Assembly (NCBI GenBank): GCA_947475445.1
Contig: CANJLC010000001.1
Location: 310,001 to 374,000 of the forward strand
Reading direction: 5' to 3'
Source: Alphaproteobacteria bacterium
GTDB lineage: Bacteria > Pseudomonadota > Alphaproteobacteria > Micropepsales > Micropepsaceae
DNA length: 64,000 nucleotides
Under the pieces are notes generated by a model, which did not search any database, was not told where the DNA came from, and saw only the letters and a program-made list of their open reading frames with translations. Of this stretch, positions 1,937-9,372 are shown in pieces. Positions within the stretch are counted from its first letter, which is position 1. Each line of letters starts with the position of its first letter. The translations under genes were made by a program, and so were the position numbers.

Positions 1937-2737
1937 ATGCGCATAGCTCTTCCTCTCGCTCTGGGTGTGACTCTGGGCCTGCTCGCTTCGGTTCCGGCCT
2001 TCGCCGCCGACACCAAGCGCCTGGCCCCCAAGGATGTGGAATTCGAGTTCGAAGGTCCCTTCGGTACCTATGACCGCGGCGCCCTGCAGCGCGGCTTCCA
2101 GGTCTACAAGGAAGTCTGCTCCGCCTGCCACGGCCTGGACCACGTCGCCTTCCACAATATGTCGGAAGAAGGTGGCCCCGGCTTCTCCGAAGCCCAGGCC
2201 AAGGCCATCGCCTCTGGCTACCGCATCCCGGCCGAGCCCAACGACAAGGGCGAGATCATGGACGACAAGGGCACCCGCCTGACCCGTGCGGGCATCATGG
2301 CGGACTATTTCCCGTCGCCCTTCCCGAACGAGCAGGCCGCCCGCGCCAGCAATGGCGGCGCGCTGCCGCCCGACCTGTCCATGATCGTCAAGGCCCGCGA
2401 AGGCGAAGCCCAATATGTCTATTCGATCCTGACGGGCTTCCACATGACGCCGCCCGGCGGCTTCAAGGTGACGGAAGGCAAATACTACAACCCCTATTTC
2501 GAAGGCTGGAACATCTCCATGCCGCCGCCGCTGACCGACAAGGGCGTGACCTATTCCGACGGTACGGCCGCCACCATCGACCAGCAGGCCCATGACGTGA
2601 CGACCTTCCTGGCCTGGGCCGCCGATCCGCACATGGAAGACCGCAAGCGCATGGGCTTCGGCGTGCTGGCCTTCCTGGTGGTGCTCTCCGGCATCCTGTT
2701 CGCCGCTTACCGCAAGGTCTGGAAAGACGCCCACTGA
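1937..2737 (+). CDS. petC: Cytochrome c1
   Basis: Cytochrome c1 accepts electrons from the Rieske protein and passes them to a soluble or membrane-bound cytochrome c. The 266-aa product starts with a Sec signal peptide ending near AFAADT. It carries one CSACH heme c site about 55 residues in. A C-terminal hydrophobic anchor (FGVLAFLVVLSGILFAAY) is followed by positive residues. The reading frame is open far upstream inside petB, but the ATG at 1937 after GAGTGAGAAC gives the correct signal peptide. It is the last gene of petABC. Confidence 0.96.
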   Translation: MRIALPLALGVTLGLLASVPAFAADTKRLAPKDVEFEFEGPFGTYDRGALQRGFQVYKEVCSACHGLDHVAFHNMSEEGGPGFSEAQAKAIASGYRIPAEPNDKGEIMDDKGTRLTRAGIMADYFPSPFPNEQAARASNGGALPPDLSMIVKAREGEAQYVYSILTGFHMTPPGGFKVTEGKYYNPYFEGWNISMPPPLTDKGVTYSDGTAATIDQQAHDVTTFLAWAADPHMEDRKRMGFGVLAFLVVLSGILFAAYRKVWKDAH

Positions 2738-2749
2738 CATGGACCTGTC

Positions 2750-2769
2750 ATTCCCGCAAAAGCGGGAAT
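2750..2769. repeat. Short REP-like palindrome
   Basis: ATTCCCGC and GCGGGAAT form a perfect 8-bp stem around an AAAA loop, 12 nt after petC. Palindromes of this form are common between genes in Proteobacteria. No T-run follows, so it is probably an mRNA 3'-end stabiliser or a REP-type repeat rather than a terminator. Confidence 0.5.
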
Positions 2770-2800
2770 CCAGTTCTTTCTTGCCGCTTTGAACATGCTA

Positions 2801-2834
2801 AAAGGGCGCTCTCCTTCCGGAAAGCGCCCTTTTT
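2801..2834 (+). terminator. Intrinsic terminator after petABC, abutting mtnP
   Basis: AAAGGGCGCT (2801-2810) pairs perfectly with AGCGCCCTTT (2823-2832), and the U-tract runs to 2834. It should end the petABC transcript. The mtnP ATG begins at 2836, so the hairpin occupies the place where a ribosome-binding site would lie. Confidence 0.85.
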
Positions 2835-2835
2835 C

Positions 2836-3711
2836 ATGAGCAAAACGGTCCTCGGCATCCTTGGCGGTTCCGGCGTTTACGAAATACCCGGCCTGGAAAA
2901 CGCCAAATGGCAGGACGTCAAAAGTCCCTGGGGCCAGCCCTCCGACCAGCTGCTCACCGGCACCTTCCATGGCGTGGACATGGTGTTCCTGCCGCGCCAT
3001 GGCCGCGGCCATAACCAGACCCCGACCAGCATCAATTACCGCGCCAATATTGACGCCCTCAAGCGCGTCGGCGTCACCGATGTGATCTCGGTGTCAGCCT
3101 GCGGTTCGCTGAAAGAGGAATTGCCGCCCGGCACCTTCGTGATGGCCGACCAGTTCATCGACCGCACCTTCGCCCGCGAAAAAAGCTTCTTCGGGCCCGG
3201 CTTTGTCGCCCATGTTCCCATGGCCCATCCGGTCTGTCCGCATTTGTCCGGCGCCCTGACGCTGGCGGCACGCGAGCAGAAGATCGACCACAGCGAAGGC
3301 GGCACCTATATCTGCATGGAAGGGCCGCAATTCTCCACCCGCGCCGAAAGCTTTCTCTACCGCAGCTGGGATTGCAGCGTGATCGGCATGACGGCGATGC
3401 CCGAAGCCAAGCTCGCCCGCGAAGCGGAACTGCCCTACGCCATCGTGGCGATGGTGACCGACTATGACTGCTGGCATGACGATCACGAGCATGTGACGGT
3501 CGAAGCCGTGATCAAGATCATGCAGGGCAATGCCGCCAACGCGCGCAAGCTCATCATGGCGGTGGCGGACAAGCTGGGGCCCGAGCGCCAGCCTTGCCCG
3601 CTGGGTGTGGAAACCATGCTCGACATGGCGCTGATTACCGCGCCCGACAAGCGCGATCCCGCGCTGGTTGCCAAGCTGGACGCCGTGGCGGGGCGGGTGC
3701 TGAACAAATGA
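2836..3711 (+). CDS. mtnP: S-methyl-5'-thioadenosine phosphorylase
   Basis: This 291-aa enzyme splits 5'-methylthioadenosine with phosphate into adenine and methylthioribose-1-phosphate. It starts with the family signature [14 protein letters not shown]. It continues with RHGRGH, the [12 protein letters not shown] segment and [12 protein letters not shown], all typical of the MTAP branch of purine nucleoside phosphorylases. The start is fixed by homology, yet no Shine-Dalgarno sequence precedes it because a terminator hairpin ends 2 nt upstream. The stop overlaps the ATG of the next gene. Both downstream products have partners here: adenine goes to apt and the sugar phosphate to mtnA. Confidence 0.96.
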
Positions 3712-4001
3712 AAACCAACGCAGACTGCATCGGCAAATCCGTTCTGGTCGGCCTTCGCCATCTGGATGGGCAGGGCAAGCAAGCCTCATTCGAGGATTTT
3801 TTCGGCGTGGTGGAAAGCTCCGACGACGAAGCGGGTGTCGTGCTGAAAAGGCCGCGCGACGGCGCGACCCATATCATGCCGCACATCGATTTGGCGGAAT
3901 TCCCGCCCACCCATCAATCCTACGGCATCGTTTCCGAGGACGAAAAAGTAAATCCCGATTACGTCGTGTTCTTCGACCTTCATCCGCCCGACAAGAAGTG
4001 A
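3708..4001 (+). CDS. Conserved-looking small protein of the MTA salvage operon
   Basis: I do not recognise this 97-aa acidic, soluble protein. It has no signal peptide or membrane segment. Its sequence alternates hydrophobic and polar residues, for example [16 protein letters not shown] and [10 protein letters not shown], which suggests a small beta-rich fold. The ATG overlaps the mtnP stop in an ATGA arrangement, and it ends 8 nt before the apt start. Translational coupling on both sides argues that it is real and works with nucleoside salvage. No function is assigned. Confidence 0.75.
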
Positions 4002-4009
4002 GGCCTGCC

Positions 4010-4537
4010 ATGGATTTCAAAAGCGCCATTCGCACCATTCCGGACTATCCCAAGAAAGGGATCATGTTCCGCGACATCACCACCCTGCTGGGCAACCCGC
4101 GCGCTTTCCGCGCCGCGGTGGACGCGCTGGTGCAGCCTTTTGCGGGCCTGAAGATCGACAAGGTGGCCGGGCTGGAAGCGCGCGGCTTTATCTTAGGGGG
4201 AGCCGTGGCGCACCAGCTTTGCGTGGGTTTCATTCCCGTGCGCAAGAAAGGCAAGCTGCCCCACACCGTGATCGGTGAGGACTATGTCCTGGAATATGGC
4301 ACCGACCGGGTCGAGATTCATGCCGACGCGGTGGAAAAAGGCGAGAGGGTTTTGCTGATCGACGACCTGATCGCCACCGGCGGCACGGCCATGGCCGGCA
4401 TCAGGCTGCTGGAGCGGGCAGGGGCAAAAATTGTGGGCTGCTCCTTCGTGATCGACCTGCCGGAGTTGGGCGGCGCACAAAAGCTGACGGCCATTGGCAT
4501 GAATGTCAGTTCGCTCGTCGCATTTGAGGGCCACTAA
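4010..4537 (+). CDS. apt: Adenine phosphoribosyltransferase
   Basis: Apt joins adenine to PRPP to make AMP and so recycles the adenine released by MtnP. The 175-aa protein shows [32 protein letters not shown] and the PRPP-binding loop [14 protein letters not shown]. The ATG at 4010 follows GTGAGGCCTGCC, so the GTG at 3998 is not required. The stop codon directly touches the TTG start of the GST gene. Confidence 0.96.
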
Positions 4538-5131
4538 TTGAAGCTGTATGGCAATCCTGCTTCGCCTTTCGCCCGCAAGGCGCTGGTGGTCGCCCATGTG
4601 CTGGGCATCAAGCTGGAGGTGATTGACCTCACCCCCCCTTACGGCACGGCGGAGTTCCGCCGCATCAATCCGCTGGGAAAAATACCGGCGCTGATCCTGG
4701 GCGATGGTTCCGCCATCTTCGATTCGCGTGTCATTTGCGAATATCTCAACCGCTATGGCGGCGGCAAATTCTTTCCCGGCAACAGCCTTTTGGGCAACAA
4801 CAAGGGTCAATGGAAGGCCCTGACGCTGCAGGCGCTGGCGGACGGACTGTGCGACGCGGCTGTCGGCCGCGTGGTGGAAGGCCGCCAGCCCAATCCCAAC
4901 CCGGCCCATATTGACCGCCACACGGCGGCGATGGAGGCGGCGCTGGATGCGCTGGAGCGGGTGAAATTCTCGGAAAGCCCCACCATCGGCGAAATCGCCG
5001 CCGGCGTGGCGCTGGGCTATGTCGATTTTCGCTTCAAGGACCTTGATTGGCGCGCCACCCGCCCCAAATTGTCTGCTTGGTACGGGAAATTCTCCCAATA
5101 CCCCGCGATGCAGGCGACGCAGCCGAAATGA
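4538..5131 (+). CDS. Glutathione S-transferase family protein
   Basis: This 197-aa protein has an N-terminal thioredoxin-like GST domain ([17 protein letters not shown] with the usual Ser, then [27 protein letters not shown]). An all-helical C-terminal half follows. The start is TTG, placed right after the apt stop with GAGGG about 9 nt upstream. Its end overlaps the mtnA ATG. The substrate is unknown. Its place in the operon suggests it acts on, or protects against, a sulfur or aldehyde intermediate of methylthioadenosine salvage, but that is inference. Confidence 0.88.
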
Positions 5132-6207
5132 AGATCAAGGGTCAGCATTATCGTTCCGTCTGGCCCATCGGCGATGACGCCTTCGGCATCATCGACCAGA
5201 CAAGGCTGCCGCATGAATTCGTGACCCTCACTTTGCGCTCGCCGCAAGACGCGGCCCACGCCATTACTTCGATGCAGACGCGCGGTGCGCCGCTGATCGG
5301 CGCGGTGGGCGCCTATGGCCTGGCGCTGGCGATGCGTGCCGATCCATCCGACGAAAACCTCACCCGCATTCATGACATGTTGGCTGAGACCCGTCCTACC
5401 GCCATCAATTTGCGCTGGGCCCTGGGCCGCATGCGGGACGCGCTGCTAAAGCGTCCGCATACGGATCGTTCTGCCCTGGCCTGGAAGGAGGCCGCCGCCA
5501 TCGCCGATGAAGACGTGGCGATGAGCAAAGCCATTGGCGAACATGGTCTGACGATCATCCGGGATCTCGCGGCCAGGAAAAAGCGCAAGCTCAACATCCT
5601 CACCCATTGCAATGCCGGCTGGCTGGCGACGGTGGATTACGGCACCGCGCTGGCGCCCATCTACCTGGCGCATGACGCCGGCATCGACCTGCATGTCTGG
5701 GTCGACGAAACCCGCCCCCGCAACCAGGGCGCCTCGCTCACGGCGTTTGAACTGGGCAGCCACGGCGTCGCCCACACCATCCTGGCCGACAATGCCGGCG
5801 GCCATTACATGCAGGCAGGCGAAGTGGACATGGTGATCGTGGGCACCGACCGCGTCACCGCCAATGGCGATGTCGCCAACAAGATCGGCACTTATCTCAA
5901 GGCGCTGGCGGCGAAGGACAACAATGTTCCCTTCTATGTGGCGCTGCCCAGTTCCACCATCGACTGGACGCTGGCCGACGGCCGCGACATTCCCATCGAG
6001 GAACGCTCGGCGGACGAAATCCTGAAAATGACCGGCCGGCTGCCGGGCGGCGGCGTCGCCACGGTGGAAATCGCCGCCCCCGGTTCCCCTGCCGCCAATC
6101 CCGGCTTCGACGTGACGCCCGCCCGGCTGGTTACGGGCTTTATCACCGAACGCGGCACTTGCGCCGCTACGCCCGAGGGCTTATCGAGCCTTTTCCCCAA
6201 AGCTTGA
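5128..6207 (+). CDS. mtnA: Methylthioribose-1-phosphate isomerase
   Basis: MtnA converts the aldose methylthioribose-1-phosphate into the ketose methylthioribulose-1-phosphate. The 359-aa protein has [13 protein letters not shown] from residue 52, a Cys in HCNAG at residue 161, and an Asp in [18 protein letters not shown] at residue 241. These match the catalytic Cys and Asp of the family. The ATG at 5128 overlaps the GST stop as ATGA. In the usual pathway mtnB would act next; here a fused aldolase-dehydrogenase follows after 9 nt. Confidence 0.95.
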
Positions 6208-6216
6208 GAGACGTCC

Positions 6217-8274
6217 ATGCAATCGCTCTGGAACAAGGCTGAAGCCGAAAAATTCGTCACCGATTACGCCCCCAGGGGCGTGAACGAAGATTTGGCGGTG
6301 CGCACCTACACCACGCGCCTGCTGGGCGGCGATCCGCGCATGGTGCTGCATGGCGGCGGCAACACCTCCGTCAAGACCATCATGAAGGACATGCTGGGCG
6401 AAGATGTCGAGGTGATCTGCATCAAGGGCTCCGGCTGGGACATGGGTTCCATCGAACCGGCGGGTCTTCCCGCGGTGCGCCTCGAACCCCTGCGCAAGCT
6501 GCGCAAGCTGGACAAGCTGTCCGACGAGGACATGGTCAATTTCCAGCGCATCAACCTGCTCGACTCGTCTTCGCCCAATCCATCTGTGGAAACCCTGCTG
6601 CACGCCTTCCTGCCGCACAAATTCATCGACCATGTCCATTCCACGGCGGTGCTGGCCCTGACCGACCAGCCCGACAACAAGGCGCTGGTCCACGAAGTCT
6701 ATGGCGACCGTGTCGCCTATGTGCCCTACACCATTCCCGGCTTTGCCCTGGCGAAATCCGTGGCCGAAGTGTTCGACAGGAATCCGAATGTCGAAGGGCT
6801 GGTGCTTTTGCAGCACGGCATCTTCACCGTGGGCGATACCGCCGAGCAGGCCTACAGCCGCATGATCGAATTCGTCACCCTGGCGGAAGAACGCTTGACC
6901 CGCCAGCGCAAGACCATCGCGGCCGCCAAGCTGCCGGCGAAGATCGCGTCTCTTCCCGACATTGCCCCGATCCTGCGCGGCGCAGTGGCGCTGGAAAAAA
7001 ATGCCCTGGCCGGCACCGCCAAGCGCCAGATCCTGGATTTCCGCACCAACCCCGCCATCCTGGCCTATGTGAATGGCGCGGAGCTTTCGCGCTACAGCCA
7101 GGTCGGCGTGGTGACGCCGGACCACACCATTCGCACCAAGAACTGGCCCATGGTGGTGCCGGCGCCTGATGCCGACAGGCTCAGCGAATGGGCCGGCGAA
7201 GTGCGCGCCGCGGTGGACGCTTTTGTTGCCCGCTATCACAAATATTTTGCCGACAACAATGCCAAAAGCCCGGTCAAGAAAACCGAGCTGGATCCCCTGC
7301 CGCGCGTCATCCTGGTGCCGGGCGTGGGCATGTTCGGCATCGGCGCCTCGGCCAAGGATGCCGCCATCGCCGCCGACATTGCCGAAAACGCCATCGCCGT
7401 CATCACTGACGCCGAAGCCATCGGCGAATACCGTTCGATCAGCGAATTCGACATGTTCGAAGTGGAATATTGGTCGCTGGAACAGGCCAAGCTGGGCAAG
7501 TCCAATGAAAAGTCGCTGGCCCGCCAGGTGGCGGTGATCACCGGCGGCGCCTCCGGCATCGGCTTTGCCACCGCCAAGGCCATGGCCAAGGAAGGTGCGG
7601 AAATCGCCATCCTCGATCTGGACGCCGACGCCGCCAAGGCCGCGGCCAGGAAGATCGGCGGCAAGGCGCTGGGCATCGGCTGCGACGTCACCGATCCGGC
7701 CAGCGTCCGGTCGGCCTTCGACCAGGTGGTGAGCAAGTTCGGCGGCGTCGATATCGCCGTGTCGAACGCCGGCGCCGCCTGGCAGGGCACCATCGGCAAG
7801 GTGGACGACGCCACCCTGCGCAAAAGCTTTGAACTGAATTTCTGGGCCCATCAATCCGTGGCGCAGAACGCAGTGCGCATCATGCAGGCCCAGGGCACCT
7901 TTGGGTGCCTGCTGTTCAACACCTCCAAGCAGGCGGTCAATCCGGGCAAGGATTTCGGCCCTTATGGCTTGCCCAAGGCGGCGACCCTGTTCTTGGTCAA
8001 GCAATATGCACTGGACCATGGCAAGGACGGCATCCGCTCCAACGCCGTCAACGCCGACCGCATTCGCACCGGCCTGCTCACGGATGACATGGTGGCAGCC
8101 CGCTCCAAGGCGCGCGGCCTTTCCGAGACGGATTACATGAGCGGCAACCTGCTCAAGCGCGAAGTCACCGCCGAAGATGTGGCGGAAGCCTTCGTCTATC
8201 TCGCCAACGCTTCAAAAACGACCGCAGCCGTCATTACCGTGGACGGCGGCAATATCGAAGCATCGCTGCGCTGA
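6217..8274 (+). CDS. Bifunctional class II aldolase / short-chain dehydrogenase
   Basis: This 685-aa fusion has two catalytic parts. Residues 1-400 are a class II (metal-dependent) aldolase with GGGNTS at 46-51, the HxH metal ligands at 139-141 and a further His in QHGIF at 200. Residues 430-685 are an SDR with TGGASGIG at 442-449, SNAG, and the triad Ser570, Tyr583, Lys587. The layout matches the RhaD-type rhamnulose-1-phosphate aldolase/alcohol dehydrogenase family. Lying 9 nt after mtnA with SD GAGAGAC, it more likely cleaves methylthioribulose-1-phosphate or 5-deoxyribulose-1-phosphate to DHAP plus an aldehyde, which the SDR would reduce or oxidise. The family call is firm; the substrate is inference. 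Confidence 0.9.
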   Translation: MQSLWNKAEAEKFVTDYAPRGVNEDLAVRTYTTRLLGGDPRMVLHGGGNTSVKTIMKDMLGEDVEVICIKGSGWDMGSIEPAGLPAVRLEPLRKLRKLDKLSDEDMVNFQRINLLDSSSPNPSVETLLHAFLPHKFIDHVHSTAVLALTDQPDNKALVHEVYGDRVAYVPYTIPGFALAKSVAEVFDRNPNVEGLVLLQHGIFTVGDTAEQAYSRMIEFVTLAEERLTRQRKTIAAAKLPAKIASLPDIAPILRGAVALEKNALAGTAKRQILDFRTNPAILAYVNGAELSRYSQVGVVTPDHTIRTKNWPMVVPAPDADRLSEWAGEVRAAVDAFVARYHKYFADNNAKSPVKKTELDPLPRVILVPGVGMFGIGASAKDAAIAADIAENAIAVITDAEAIGEYRSISEFDMFEVEYWSLEQAKLGKSNEKSLARQVAVITGGASGIGFATAKAMAKEGAEIAILDLDADAAKAAARKIGGKALGIGCDVTDPASVRSAFDQVVSKFGGVDIAVSNAGAAWQGTIGKVDDATLRKSFELNFWAHQSVAQNAVRIMQAQGTFGCLLFNTSKQAVNPGKDFGPYGLPKAATLFLVKQYALDHGKDGIRSNAVNADRIRTGLLTDDMVAARSKARGLSETDYMSGNLLKREVTAEDVAEAFVYLANASKTTAAVITVDGGNIEASLR

Positions 8275-9372
8275 TTACGTATTGAACCGGAAATGCAGCA
8301 CGTCGCCATCGGCGACGACATACTCCTTGCCCTCCAGCCGGAACTTGCCCTGCTCGCGCGCGCCGGCTTCGCCCTTGCCCGCCACATAATCGGCAAAGGC
8401 AATGGTTTCGGCACGGATGAAGCCATGCTCGAAATCGGTATGGATGGCGCCGGCTGCCTGGGGCGCGCGGCTGCCCTTGGTCACGGTCCAGGCGCGGGTT
8501 TCCTTGGGGCCGACCGTGAAGAAGGTCAGCAGTCCCAAAAGCTCATAGCCGGTGCGGATCATGCGGTTCAGGCCCGGTTCTTCCAGCCCGATGGAATCCA
8601 GGAAATCCTTGCGCTCTTCATTGGGAAGCTGCGCGATCTCTTCTTCCACCTTGCAGGAAATCACCACGGCGCGGGCGCCTTCCGCCTTGGCCTTGGCTTC
8701 GACCTTGGCGGAGTATTCATTGCCGGTGGCTGCAGCGCCTTCCTCGACATTGCAGACATAGAGGACAGGCTTCGCCGTCATCAGGCCCAGCTGGCTATAG
8801 GGGCCGCGTTCTTCCGCCGCCAATTGCGCCTGGCGGGCCGGCTTGCCTTCGCGCAACAGCACAACCGCCTTCATCATCAGGGCAAGCTGCTCCTTGGCTT
8901 CTTTCTCGCCCGAGTTGGCCTTCTTTTCCAGGGGTTTTATGCGTTTTTCCAGGCTCTCCAGATCGGCCAGCATCAGCTCGGTTTCCACCACTTCCGCGTC
9001 GCCGATGGGATCGATCCGGCCCTCGACATGGGTGATGTCGTCATCCTGGAAACAGCGCAGCACATGCGCCAGGGCGTCCACTTCGCGGATGGTGGCCAGG
9101 AACTGGTTGCCCAGCCCTTCGCCCTTGGAGGCGCCGCGCACCAGCCCGGCAATGTCCACGAAGGTAATGCGGGTGGGAATGATTTCCTGCGATCCCGCGA
9201 TCTTGCAAAGCACATCCAGCCGCGGATCCGGCACCGCCACATCGCCGACATTGGGCTCGATGGTGCAGAAAGGATAATTGGCCGCCTGCGCCGCCGCCGT
9301 TTGCGTCAACGCATTGAACAATGTGGACTTGCCGACATTGGGCAGGCCAACGATACCGCATTTGAAACCCAT
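8275..9372 (-). CDS. ychF: Redox-regulated ATPase YchF (ribosome-associated)
   Basis: YchF is an Obg-related P-loop ATPase that binds ribosomes. The 365-aa protein begins MGFKCGIVGLPNVGKSTLFNALT and has DIAGLVRGAS as its G3 region. NVEE replaces the usual NKxD, the NxxE form linked to ATP rather than GTP use. A coiled-coil insertion (residues 130-170) and a C-terminal TGS domain follow. It overlaps pth by one base and converges with the aldolase-SDR gene with no gap between the stops. Confidence 0.96.
   Translation of the reverse strand: MGFKCGIVGLPNVGKSTLFNALTQTAAAQAANYPFCTIEPNVGDVAVPDPRLDVLCKIAGSQEIIPTRITFVDIAGLVRGASKGEGLGNQFLATIREVDALAHVLRCFQDDDITHVEGRIDPIGDAEVVETELMLADLESLEKRIKPLEKKANSGEKEAKEQLALMMKAVVLLREGKPARQAQLAAEERGPYSQLGLMTAKPVLYVCNVEEGAAATGNEYSAKVEAKAKAEGARAVVISCKVEEEIAQLPNEERKDFLDSIGLEEPGLNRMIRTGYELLGLLTFFTVGPKETRAWTVTKGSRAPQAAGAIHTDFEHGFIRAETIAFADYVAGKGEAGAREQGKFRLEGKEYVVADGDVLHFRFNT

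Follow-up and report, generated by a model that had tools for sequence, protein, structure and literature searches.

A class II aldolase–dehydrogenase fusion as the candidate aldolase of a DHAP shunt for S-adenosylmethionine by-products in Alphaproteobacteria

Introduction

Methylthioadenosine and 5'-deoxyadenosine are by-products of S-adenosylmethionine that inhibit the cell. The dihydroxyacetone phosphate (DHAP) shunts are made up of MtnP or MtnK together with MtnA and the aldolase Ald2 in Rhodospirillum rubrum, Rhodopseudomonas palustris and some Escherichia coli strains, and of DrdK, DrdI and DrdA in Bacillus thuringiensis. Here we examine a window of 64,000 nucleotides from a genome of the Micropepsaceae (contig CANJLC010000001.1, positions 310,001 to 374,000), in which mtnP, apt and mtnA are followed by a gene encoding a class II aldolase fused to a short-chain dehydrogenase/reductase (SDR).

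The same two domains, in the same order, are found in RhaEW, which is YuxG in Bacillus subtilis and Caur_2283 in Chloroflexus aurantiacus. According to the sections consulted of one paper, the C. aurantiacus enzyme forms DHAP and L-lactate, is inactive with NADH and yields neither product without NAD+ (PMC3870299). The orthologues of RhaEW are stated there to be always located in rha loci (PMC3870299). In the portions examined of the literature, including PMC10986504, PMC5893883, PMC6302742, PMC3870299, PMC12632272, PMC6079011 and PMC8102628, the fusion was not tied to mtnA or to methylthioadenosine, and an earlier mention is possible.

Results

The fusion closes a six-gene run

The six genes mtnP, a 97-aa open reading frame (ORF), apt, a glutathione S-transferase (GST) gene, mtnA and the fusion gene form a single run on one strand (Table 1), with the overlaps and tiny gaps that an earlier note on this DNA had described. 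ATGA overlaps join mtnP to the 97-aa ORF (3708-3711) and the GST gene to mtnA (5128-5131), and 9 nt separate the mtnA stop codon from the ATG of the fusion. The MtnA of the window is 61% identical to that of E. coli S88. We propose, with a probability of roughly 80%, that the six genes belong to a DHAP shunt through which by-products of S-adenosylmethionine are broken down, and that the fusion serves in it as an aldolase-dehydrogenase replacing Ald2.

The fusion reaches the curated cut-off of NF006192 (PRK08324.1-6, bifunctional aldolase/SDR), and its score against the rhamnose model TIGR02632 (497.2 bits) lies under the cut-off of 567.75. Both of its catalytic sets had been reported as kept, and they are indeed invariant in a 12-row alignment: the HxH motif (H139, H141) with H200 in the aldolase half, and S570, Y583 and K587 in the SDR half. 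S570 stays almost invariant when 54 rows are aligned, locus L210 having a T at this position. The AlphaFold model made from the 54-row alignment has a mean pLDDT of 91.0 and a pTM of 0.89, and Foldseek matched it to the aldolase domain of 3m4r (TM-score by target 0.93) and to the SDR 4dqx (0.91). The predicted structure and its matches confirm the two folds and do not decide the substrate.

Table 1. Genes of the run and domains of the fusion protein, in positions of the window.
Feature	Position	Strand	Evidence
mtnP, S-methyl-5'-thioadenosine phosphorylase	2836..3711	+	NF006492, 504.9 bits (cut-off 437)
97-aa ORF, not core	3708..4001	+	No Pfam or NCBIfam match
apt, adenine phosphoribosyltransferase	4010..4537	+	NF002634, 279 bits (cut-off 170)
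Glutathione S-transferase family protein	4538..5131	+	Pfam GST_N_2, GST_C_2
mtnA, methylthioribose-1-phosphate isomerase	5128..6207	+	TIGR00512, 416.5 bits (cut-off 279)
Class II aldolase-SDR fusion, 685 aa	6217..8274	+	NF006192, 1101.7 bits (cut-off 639), full length
Aldolase_II domain (E125, H139/H141, H200)	6313..6888	+	PF00596, residues 33-224
SDR domain (S570, Y583, K587, D467)	7525..8271	+	PF00106, residues 437-621

No known consumer of the MtnA product was found in the genome of the window

The genome to which the window belongs (2.17 Mb in 29 contigs, 98.4% complete) contains a single Aldolase_II protein, which is the fusion itself. MtnB was not found in it, since there is no other Aldolase_II protein, and neither a RuBisCO or RuBisCO-like protein (RLP) match nor an Ald2-like match (profile A3, described below, at E 1e-30) was present. 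With a single Aldolase_II protein and no match to the RuBisCO family, the searches thus yielded no enzyme known to use the product of MtnA, whether MtnB, Ald2 or RLP. There was also no match to ARD/MtnD in this genome, in a search that did not cover MtnC or MtnK; across 61 genomes, this one included, none exceeded the ARD/MtnD cut-off and three gave weak matches. The absence of mtnB and mtnD that had been noticed at the locus thereby extends to the whole genome. The genome encodes one FGGY kinase, which is GlpK-like, and no rhamnulokinase of the known family was found.

Co-occurrence with mtnA and exclusion of an Ald2-like aldolase

We surveyed 385 Alphaproteobacteria genomes (G labels denote genomes and L labels fetched loci), of which 182 were positive for mtnA (TIGR00512, E 1e-40). 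The window-type fusion was found in 71: in 69 of them it exceeds the NF006192 cut-off, in G334 it is broken and in G326 it is a fragment. Fusion and mtnA occur together in 67 genomes, the fusion alone in 4, mtnA alone in 115 and neither in 199. Expressed otherwise, mtnA is present in 67 of the 71 genomes with a fusion versus 115 of the 314 others (odds ratio 29, Fisher p 1.1e-20, relatedness ignored). Both positions were listed for 51 of the 67 genomes, and in 27 of these the two genes lie within 4 kb of each other, always on the same strand and with mtnA upstream. More divergent fusions of 400-465 bits were found in 13 genomes, the rhamnose setting being looked at in G050 alone; mtnA is present in three of the 13 (G050, G229 and G321), and G229 and G321 carry a window-type fusion as well. 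Named members of the fusion family include Mesorhizobium, Rhizobium and Bradyrhizobium.

In members of four other families (G039, G043, G044 and G058), the slot behind mtnA is occupied by a stand-alone FucA-like aldolase of 210-217 aa, which is 33-45% identical to the aldolase linked to mtnK-mtnA in E. coli S88. The latter is presumably the S88 protein that the consulted part of PMC6302742 describes as "remarkably similar" to the Ald2 of R. rubrum. The fusion has no detectable similarity to this S88 aldolase (BLAST E 1.5). A profile, A3, was built from the four stand-alone aldolases and run with the threshold given above on 80 mtnA-positive genomes; 58 were drawn from the 115 that have no fusion and 22 from the 67 that have one. 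An Ald2-like aldolase was detected in 50 of the 58 but in only 2 of the 22 (Fisher p 1.5e-10). Counted per family, the figures are 31/38 without and 2/12 with the fusion (p 8.8e-5), and both of the mixed families (f29 and f82) follow the exclusion. Twenty-nine of the 50 Ald2-like aldolases lie within 3 kb of mtnA, 15 lie elsewhere and 6 have no known place. Among the eight mtnA-positive genomes with neither protein, G082, G173 and G368 carry MtnD, G266 has an RLP-type hit, G072 has a RuBisCO-family hit, and G255, G263 and G310 are only 80-87% complete. The exclusion between the fusion and an Ald2-like aldolase among mtnA-positive genomes is broad and near-complete, and in many members of the class the fusion seems to take the place of the separate aldolase that is normally used.

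A second setting beside MtnK and MtnA

Among the best 80 of at least 590 named fusion loci, 44 contain mtnA, mtnP or mtnK (mtnA in 39, mtnP in 22, mtnK in 17). Several of these differ in layout from the window. In the Devosia locus L187, a Sugar-bind (SorC/DeoR-type) regulator gene and the fusion gene (NF006192, 1160 bits) come first; after them stand a sugar ABC importer, encoded on the other strand, and then MtnK (502.9 bits, cut-off 275), MtnA and the N-part of a transketolase. The same gene set was found by similarity in loci of Mesorhizobium, Rhizobium, Chelativorans and Nitratireductor and in Ensifer adhaerens (L224). The combination of regulator, fusion, ABC importer, MtnK and MtnA suggests an operon for the breakdown of methylthioribose or 5-deoxyribose taken up from outside. 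Over 304 aa, the regulator of L187 shares 32% identity with YjhU, which represses the DHAP shunt of E. coli and was renamed MtnR, as given in the part seen of PMC12632272. A regulator of the same family from an lsr locus reaches 26% over 314 aa to YjhU/MtnR, so the likeness is weak evidence, a family likeness that does not amount to proof.

Transketolase parts lie behind mtnK-mtnA in these rhizobial loci (L187 10399-11172; L224 17581-19517). In 12 of the 80 named loci, belonging to Reyranella, Enhydrobacter and unclassified bacteria, a phosphoribosyltransferase gene is found upstream of the fusion, with no mtn genes nearby. A zinc alcohol dehydrogenase is encoded near the fusion in 11 of the 80, mostly in those with the phosphoribosyltransferase (e.g., L165 5478-6994); another dehydrogenase would not be expected next to a fusion that already contains an SDR.

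Relation to RhaEW and to sister proteins

A tree (76 of 140 extracted rows; quick method, LG+G4; long branches flagged for L226, L230, L231 and L235) was used to compare the window protein with rhamnose-linked relatives. The seven fusions that have rhamnose genes as neighbours group together in a single clade (SH-aLRT 99). The window fusion lies inside a set of seven mtn-linked rows (SH-aLRT 100), and the rha clade is found beyond a stem of 1.33 changes per column. When only labelled rows are considered, the mtn and rha settings switch once, and rows whose neighbours are not known are interspersed with those of the mtn setting. The window's protein thus falls outside the rhamnose-linked clade; a position inside such a clade was one of the outcomes that the earlier note had named as refuting its reading.

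The rha-linked copies of G027, G029, G032 and G050 adjoin rhaI, and rhamnose genes are annotated alongside the copies on plasmids (L227, L228 and L234). G029 has both types of fusion, its rha-type copy adjoining rhaI and a rhaK-like kinase gene. The catalytic residues are common to the mtn-type group (62 rows) and the rha group (7 rows), as is D467, and 45 columns are conserved differently between the two groups; one of these is E125, where the rha group has Asp. The TIGR02632 score, the clade, the kinases encoded in the genome and the presence of both types in G029 led us to reject identity of the window fusion with RhaEW.

A sister clade of fusions is formed by L225, L232 and L233. The Sinorhizobium member (L225 9001-11046) adjoins ABC-importer parts, an SDR gene and a gene resembling that of glycerol-3-phosphate dehydrogenase. 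Unfused relatives of the aldolase half lie beside lsr genes in Sinorhizobium meliloti (L226 8001-9251, 45% identical) and Sagittula (L235 5674-6867, 41% identical), which suggests, from their neighbourhood, that these aldolases may act on a phosphorylated autoinducer-2 (AI-2) product.

RuBisCO-like proteins in the genus of the window

An RLP offers another fate for the MtnA product, and its distribution was compared with that of the fusion in 37 genomes of the window's genus. All 11 fusion-less genomes have a PF00016 hit (weak in G026), whereas of the 26 in which a fusion was found (as fragments in G011, G017 and G018), 4 have an RLP-type hit and 22 have none (Fisher p 1.6e-6 by count). A tree was made of 36 genomes, 33 of them from the genus, with genes of the mtn-fusion locus itself among its markers; the fusion changes four times on it. 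Few independent events within the genus and the lack of an effect across the class led us to reject the exclusion as a general rule and to keep it as side support only. The next same-strand gene after the RLP encodes a Cupin_2 protein in all three RLP loci scanned, and a conserved small ORF adjoins the RLP in most of ten loci, its strand not always resolved.

Discussion

Proposed pathway

Gene content, co-occurrence, exclusion, synteny and clade are the observations from which we infer a substrate, a redox direction and possible channelling. MtnP would split methylthioadenosine, and by precedent also 5'-deoxyadenosine, into adenine and a 5-substituted ribose-1-phosphate, with Apt recovering the adenine. 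MtnA would convert the sugar phosphate to methylthioribulose-1-phosphate (MTRu-1-P) or 5-deoxyribulose-1-phosphate (5dRu-1-P). In place of a separate Ald2-type aldolase, the N-terminal half of the fusion would cleave either product, releasing DHAP together with 2-(methylthio)acetaldehyde or acetaldehyde. The SDR half would then act on the aldehyde and, by analogy with RhaEW, most likely oxidise it with NAD+ to (methylthio)acetate or acetate. The shift of substrate to the MtnA product, which the earlier note had put forward as inference, gains support from the co-occurrence with mtnA, the near-exclusion of Ald2, the shared slot and the MtnK-MtnA loci, all of them genomic indications.

For the 71 alphaproteobacterial members, we offer a more specific version, for and against which the odds seem to us evenly balanced. 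They may share an oxidative, NAD+-linked DHAP shunt on a single polypeptide, converting MTRu-1-P or 5dRu-1-P to DHAP and (methylthio)acetate or acetate with no free aldehyde or 2-(methylthio)ethanol, which would have arisen from the aldolase-dehydrogenase stock that also gave RhaEW, with a change of stereochemistry at C4, and been swapped with Ald2 more than once.

Alternatives and points of doubt

SDRs commonly reduce carbonyls, and after the same aldolase step the SDR half may instead work as a reductase that uses NAD(P)H and forms 2-(methylthio)ethanol or ethanol. An Asp at the position of D467 is a mark of NAD-dependent SDRs, and its presence in both fusion groups speaks against this direction, as does the use of NAD+, with no NADH activity, by the C. 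aurantiacus RhaEW (PMC3870299). The DHAP shunt of R. palustris yields 2-(methylthio)ethanol, a product credited to a putative alcohol dehydrogenase in the part consulted of PMC5893883, and reduction therefore keeps a real, if minor, chance. We find it improbable that the substrate is another ketose-1-phosphate of purine salvage, such as ribulose-1-phosphate. Apt in the same run and the loci with a phosphoribosyltransferase but no nearby mtn genes would fit such a substrate, and the rhizobial loci with MtnK and MtnA, as well as the exclusion with the Ald2-like aldolase among mtnA-positive genomes, argue against it.

The fusion might also be a dehydratase like MtnB, or another enzyme of a methionine-regenerating branch, instead of an aldolase. 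MtnB belongs to the same superfamily, and MtnB-type enzymes can act as aldolases, as reported in the sections examined of PMC6079011 and PMC8102628. Such a role is very unlikely here: its dehydrated product would have no known next step, because ARD/MtnD had no match in the genome and none over the cut-off in the 61 searched, and an SDR partner suits an aldehyde product. It is also very unlikely that the fusion is a rhamnulose-1-phosphate aldolase/lactaldehyde dehydrogenase (RhaEW) lying beside mtnA by chance. Domain order, shared catalytic residues and the TIGR02632 match of 497 bits are what such an enzyme would display, yet that match is under the cut-off, the clade is separate with a stem of 1.33, the sole FGGY kinase is GlpK-like, G029 holds both types and mtnA is present in 67 of the 71 genomes.

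Several observations weigh against the proposed shunt. The fusion is not near mtnA in 24 of the 51 genomes with both positions listed, and four of the 71 fusion genomes lack mtnA; G135 and G148 are only 81-84% complete, G320 is 93% and G066 is 99%. The G066 protein (C1:213676-215703) is a divergent member (788.8 bits) in a genome of 1.4 Mb, and other substrates within the fusion family are possible in its case. MtnD is also present in 7 of the 71, and an Ald2-like aldolase accompanies the fusion in 2 of the 22 (G158 and G213). The E. coli S88 aldolase served in our comparisons as a stand-in for the Ald2 of R. rubrum and R. palustris. In 36 of the 80 named loci the stretch contains no mtn gene; a contig end cuts 17 of these short and 4 encode the regulator known from the MtnK loci, but 19 extend over the full 7 kb to either side. 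As to the RLP, the tree offers 3 well supported contrasts, in which it changes on average in the opposite direction to the fusion in 1.4, in the same direction in 0 and not at all in 1.6; a sign test over 3-4 independent contrasts is not significant, and no exclusion is seen at class level (6/67 vs 9/115).

The wider family is versatile, because sister proteins occur in AI-2 and other sugar loci. Stereochemistry is a further difficulty. By our own derivation, 5-deoxy-D-ribulose-1-phosphate shares its C3/C4 geometry with L-fuculose-1-phosphate, and L-rhamnulose-1-phosphate is opposite at C4, which implies that stereochemistry must have changed along with the substrate. The earlier note's description of rhamnulose-1-phosphate as a chemically parallel substrate does not hold for the stereochemistry at C4.

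If the proposed shunt is correct, the fusion supplies the aldehyde-handling enzyme in ~18% of the sampled Alphaproteobacteria (71/385), and a function can be assigned to proteins named merely 'bifunctional aldolase/short-chain dehydrogenase'. It would also offer a natural case in which to study channelling and the way a class II aldolase acquires a new substrate and a new stereochemistry.

Other features of the locus

The 97-aa ORF and the GST are not core parts of the run, because a relative of the ORF was found in only one of the other fetched loci (L041; 60% over 97 aa, E 0.01) and the GST is absent in several relatives; both were dropped as parts of the pathway. The GST scores under the cut-off of its best NCBIfam model. 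For apt, the ATG at 4010 was taken as the start, and the ORF list gives a GTG start at 3998. The run is flanked by what we take to be petABC-like genes and ychF, pth, rplY and prs, named from their translations with no family scan, and the flanking order around the run is common to many relatives. The closest named records are unclassified alphaproteobacterial metagenome-assembled genomes (MAGs), with fusions 89-90% identical, and a Micropepsaceae MAG (74%).

Upstream of mtnP there is a hairpin at 2750-2769 and a terminator-like hairpin whose T tail stops one base short of the mtnP ATG, so mtnP may be without an ordinary leader and may be expressed by read-through or as a leaderless transcript. 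Among 13 places inspected, such a hairpin also abuts the ATG in L074, L070, L072 and L043, a different hairpin intervenes before mtnP in L067, L065 and L073, and none was seen at the other five. A promoter scan of 2650-8450 found none, with 1.2 expected in shuffles.

Comparison with known systems

The run resembles the DHAP shunts in having MtnP and MtnA upstream, an aldolase gene directly after mtnA, and DHAP and a two-carbon aldehyde as predicted products. It differs from them in its aldolase: Ald2 and DrdA are FucA-like, ~210 aa and unfused, whereas the window encodes a different class II aldolase fused to an SDR. Universal methionine salvage employs MtnB and MtnD, neither of which was found in the window's genome. 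The MTA-isoprenoid shunt (RLP1 with a cupin methylsulfurylase) uses the same MtnA product as proposed for the fusion, but it carries out a 1,3-isomerisation instead of a cleavage, according to the part consulted of PMC5893883, and RLP was not found in the window's genome. With RhaEW, the fusion shares catalytic residues as judged from its rha-linked relatives (YuxG and Caur_2283 being outside the alignment), and DHAP and an oxidised aldehyde would, by analogy, be expected from both. Unlike RhaEW, it belongs to another clade, lies in a non-rha locus, scores below the TIGR02632 cut-off and is encoded in a genome in which no rhamnulokinase-type kinase was found.

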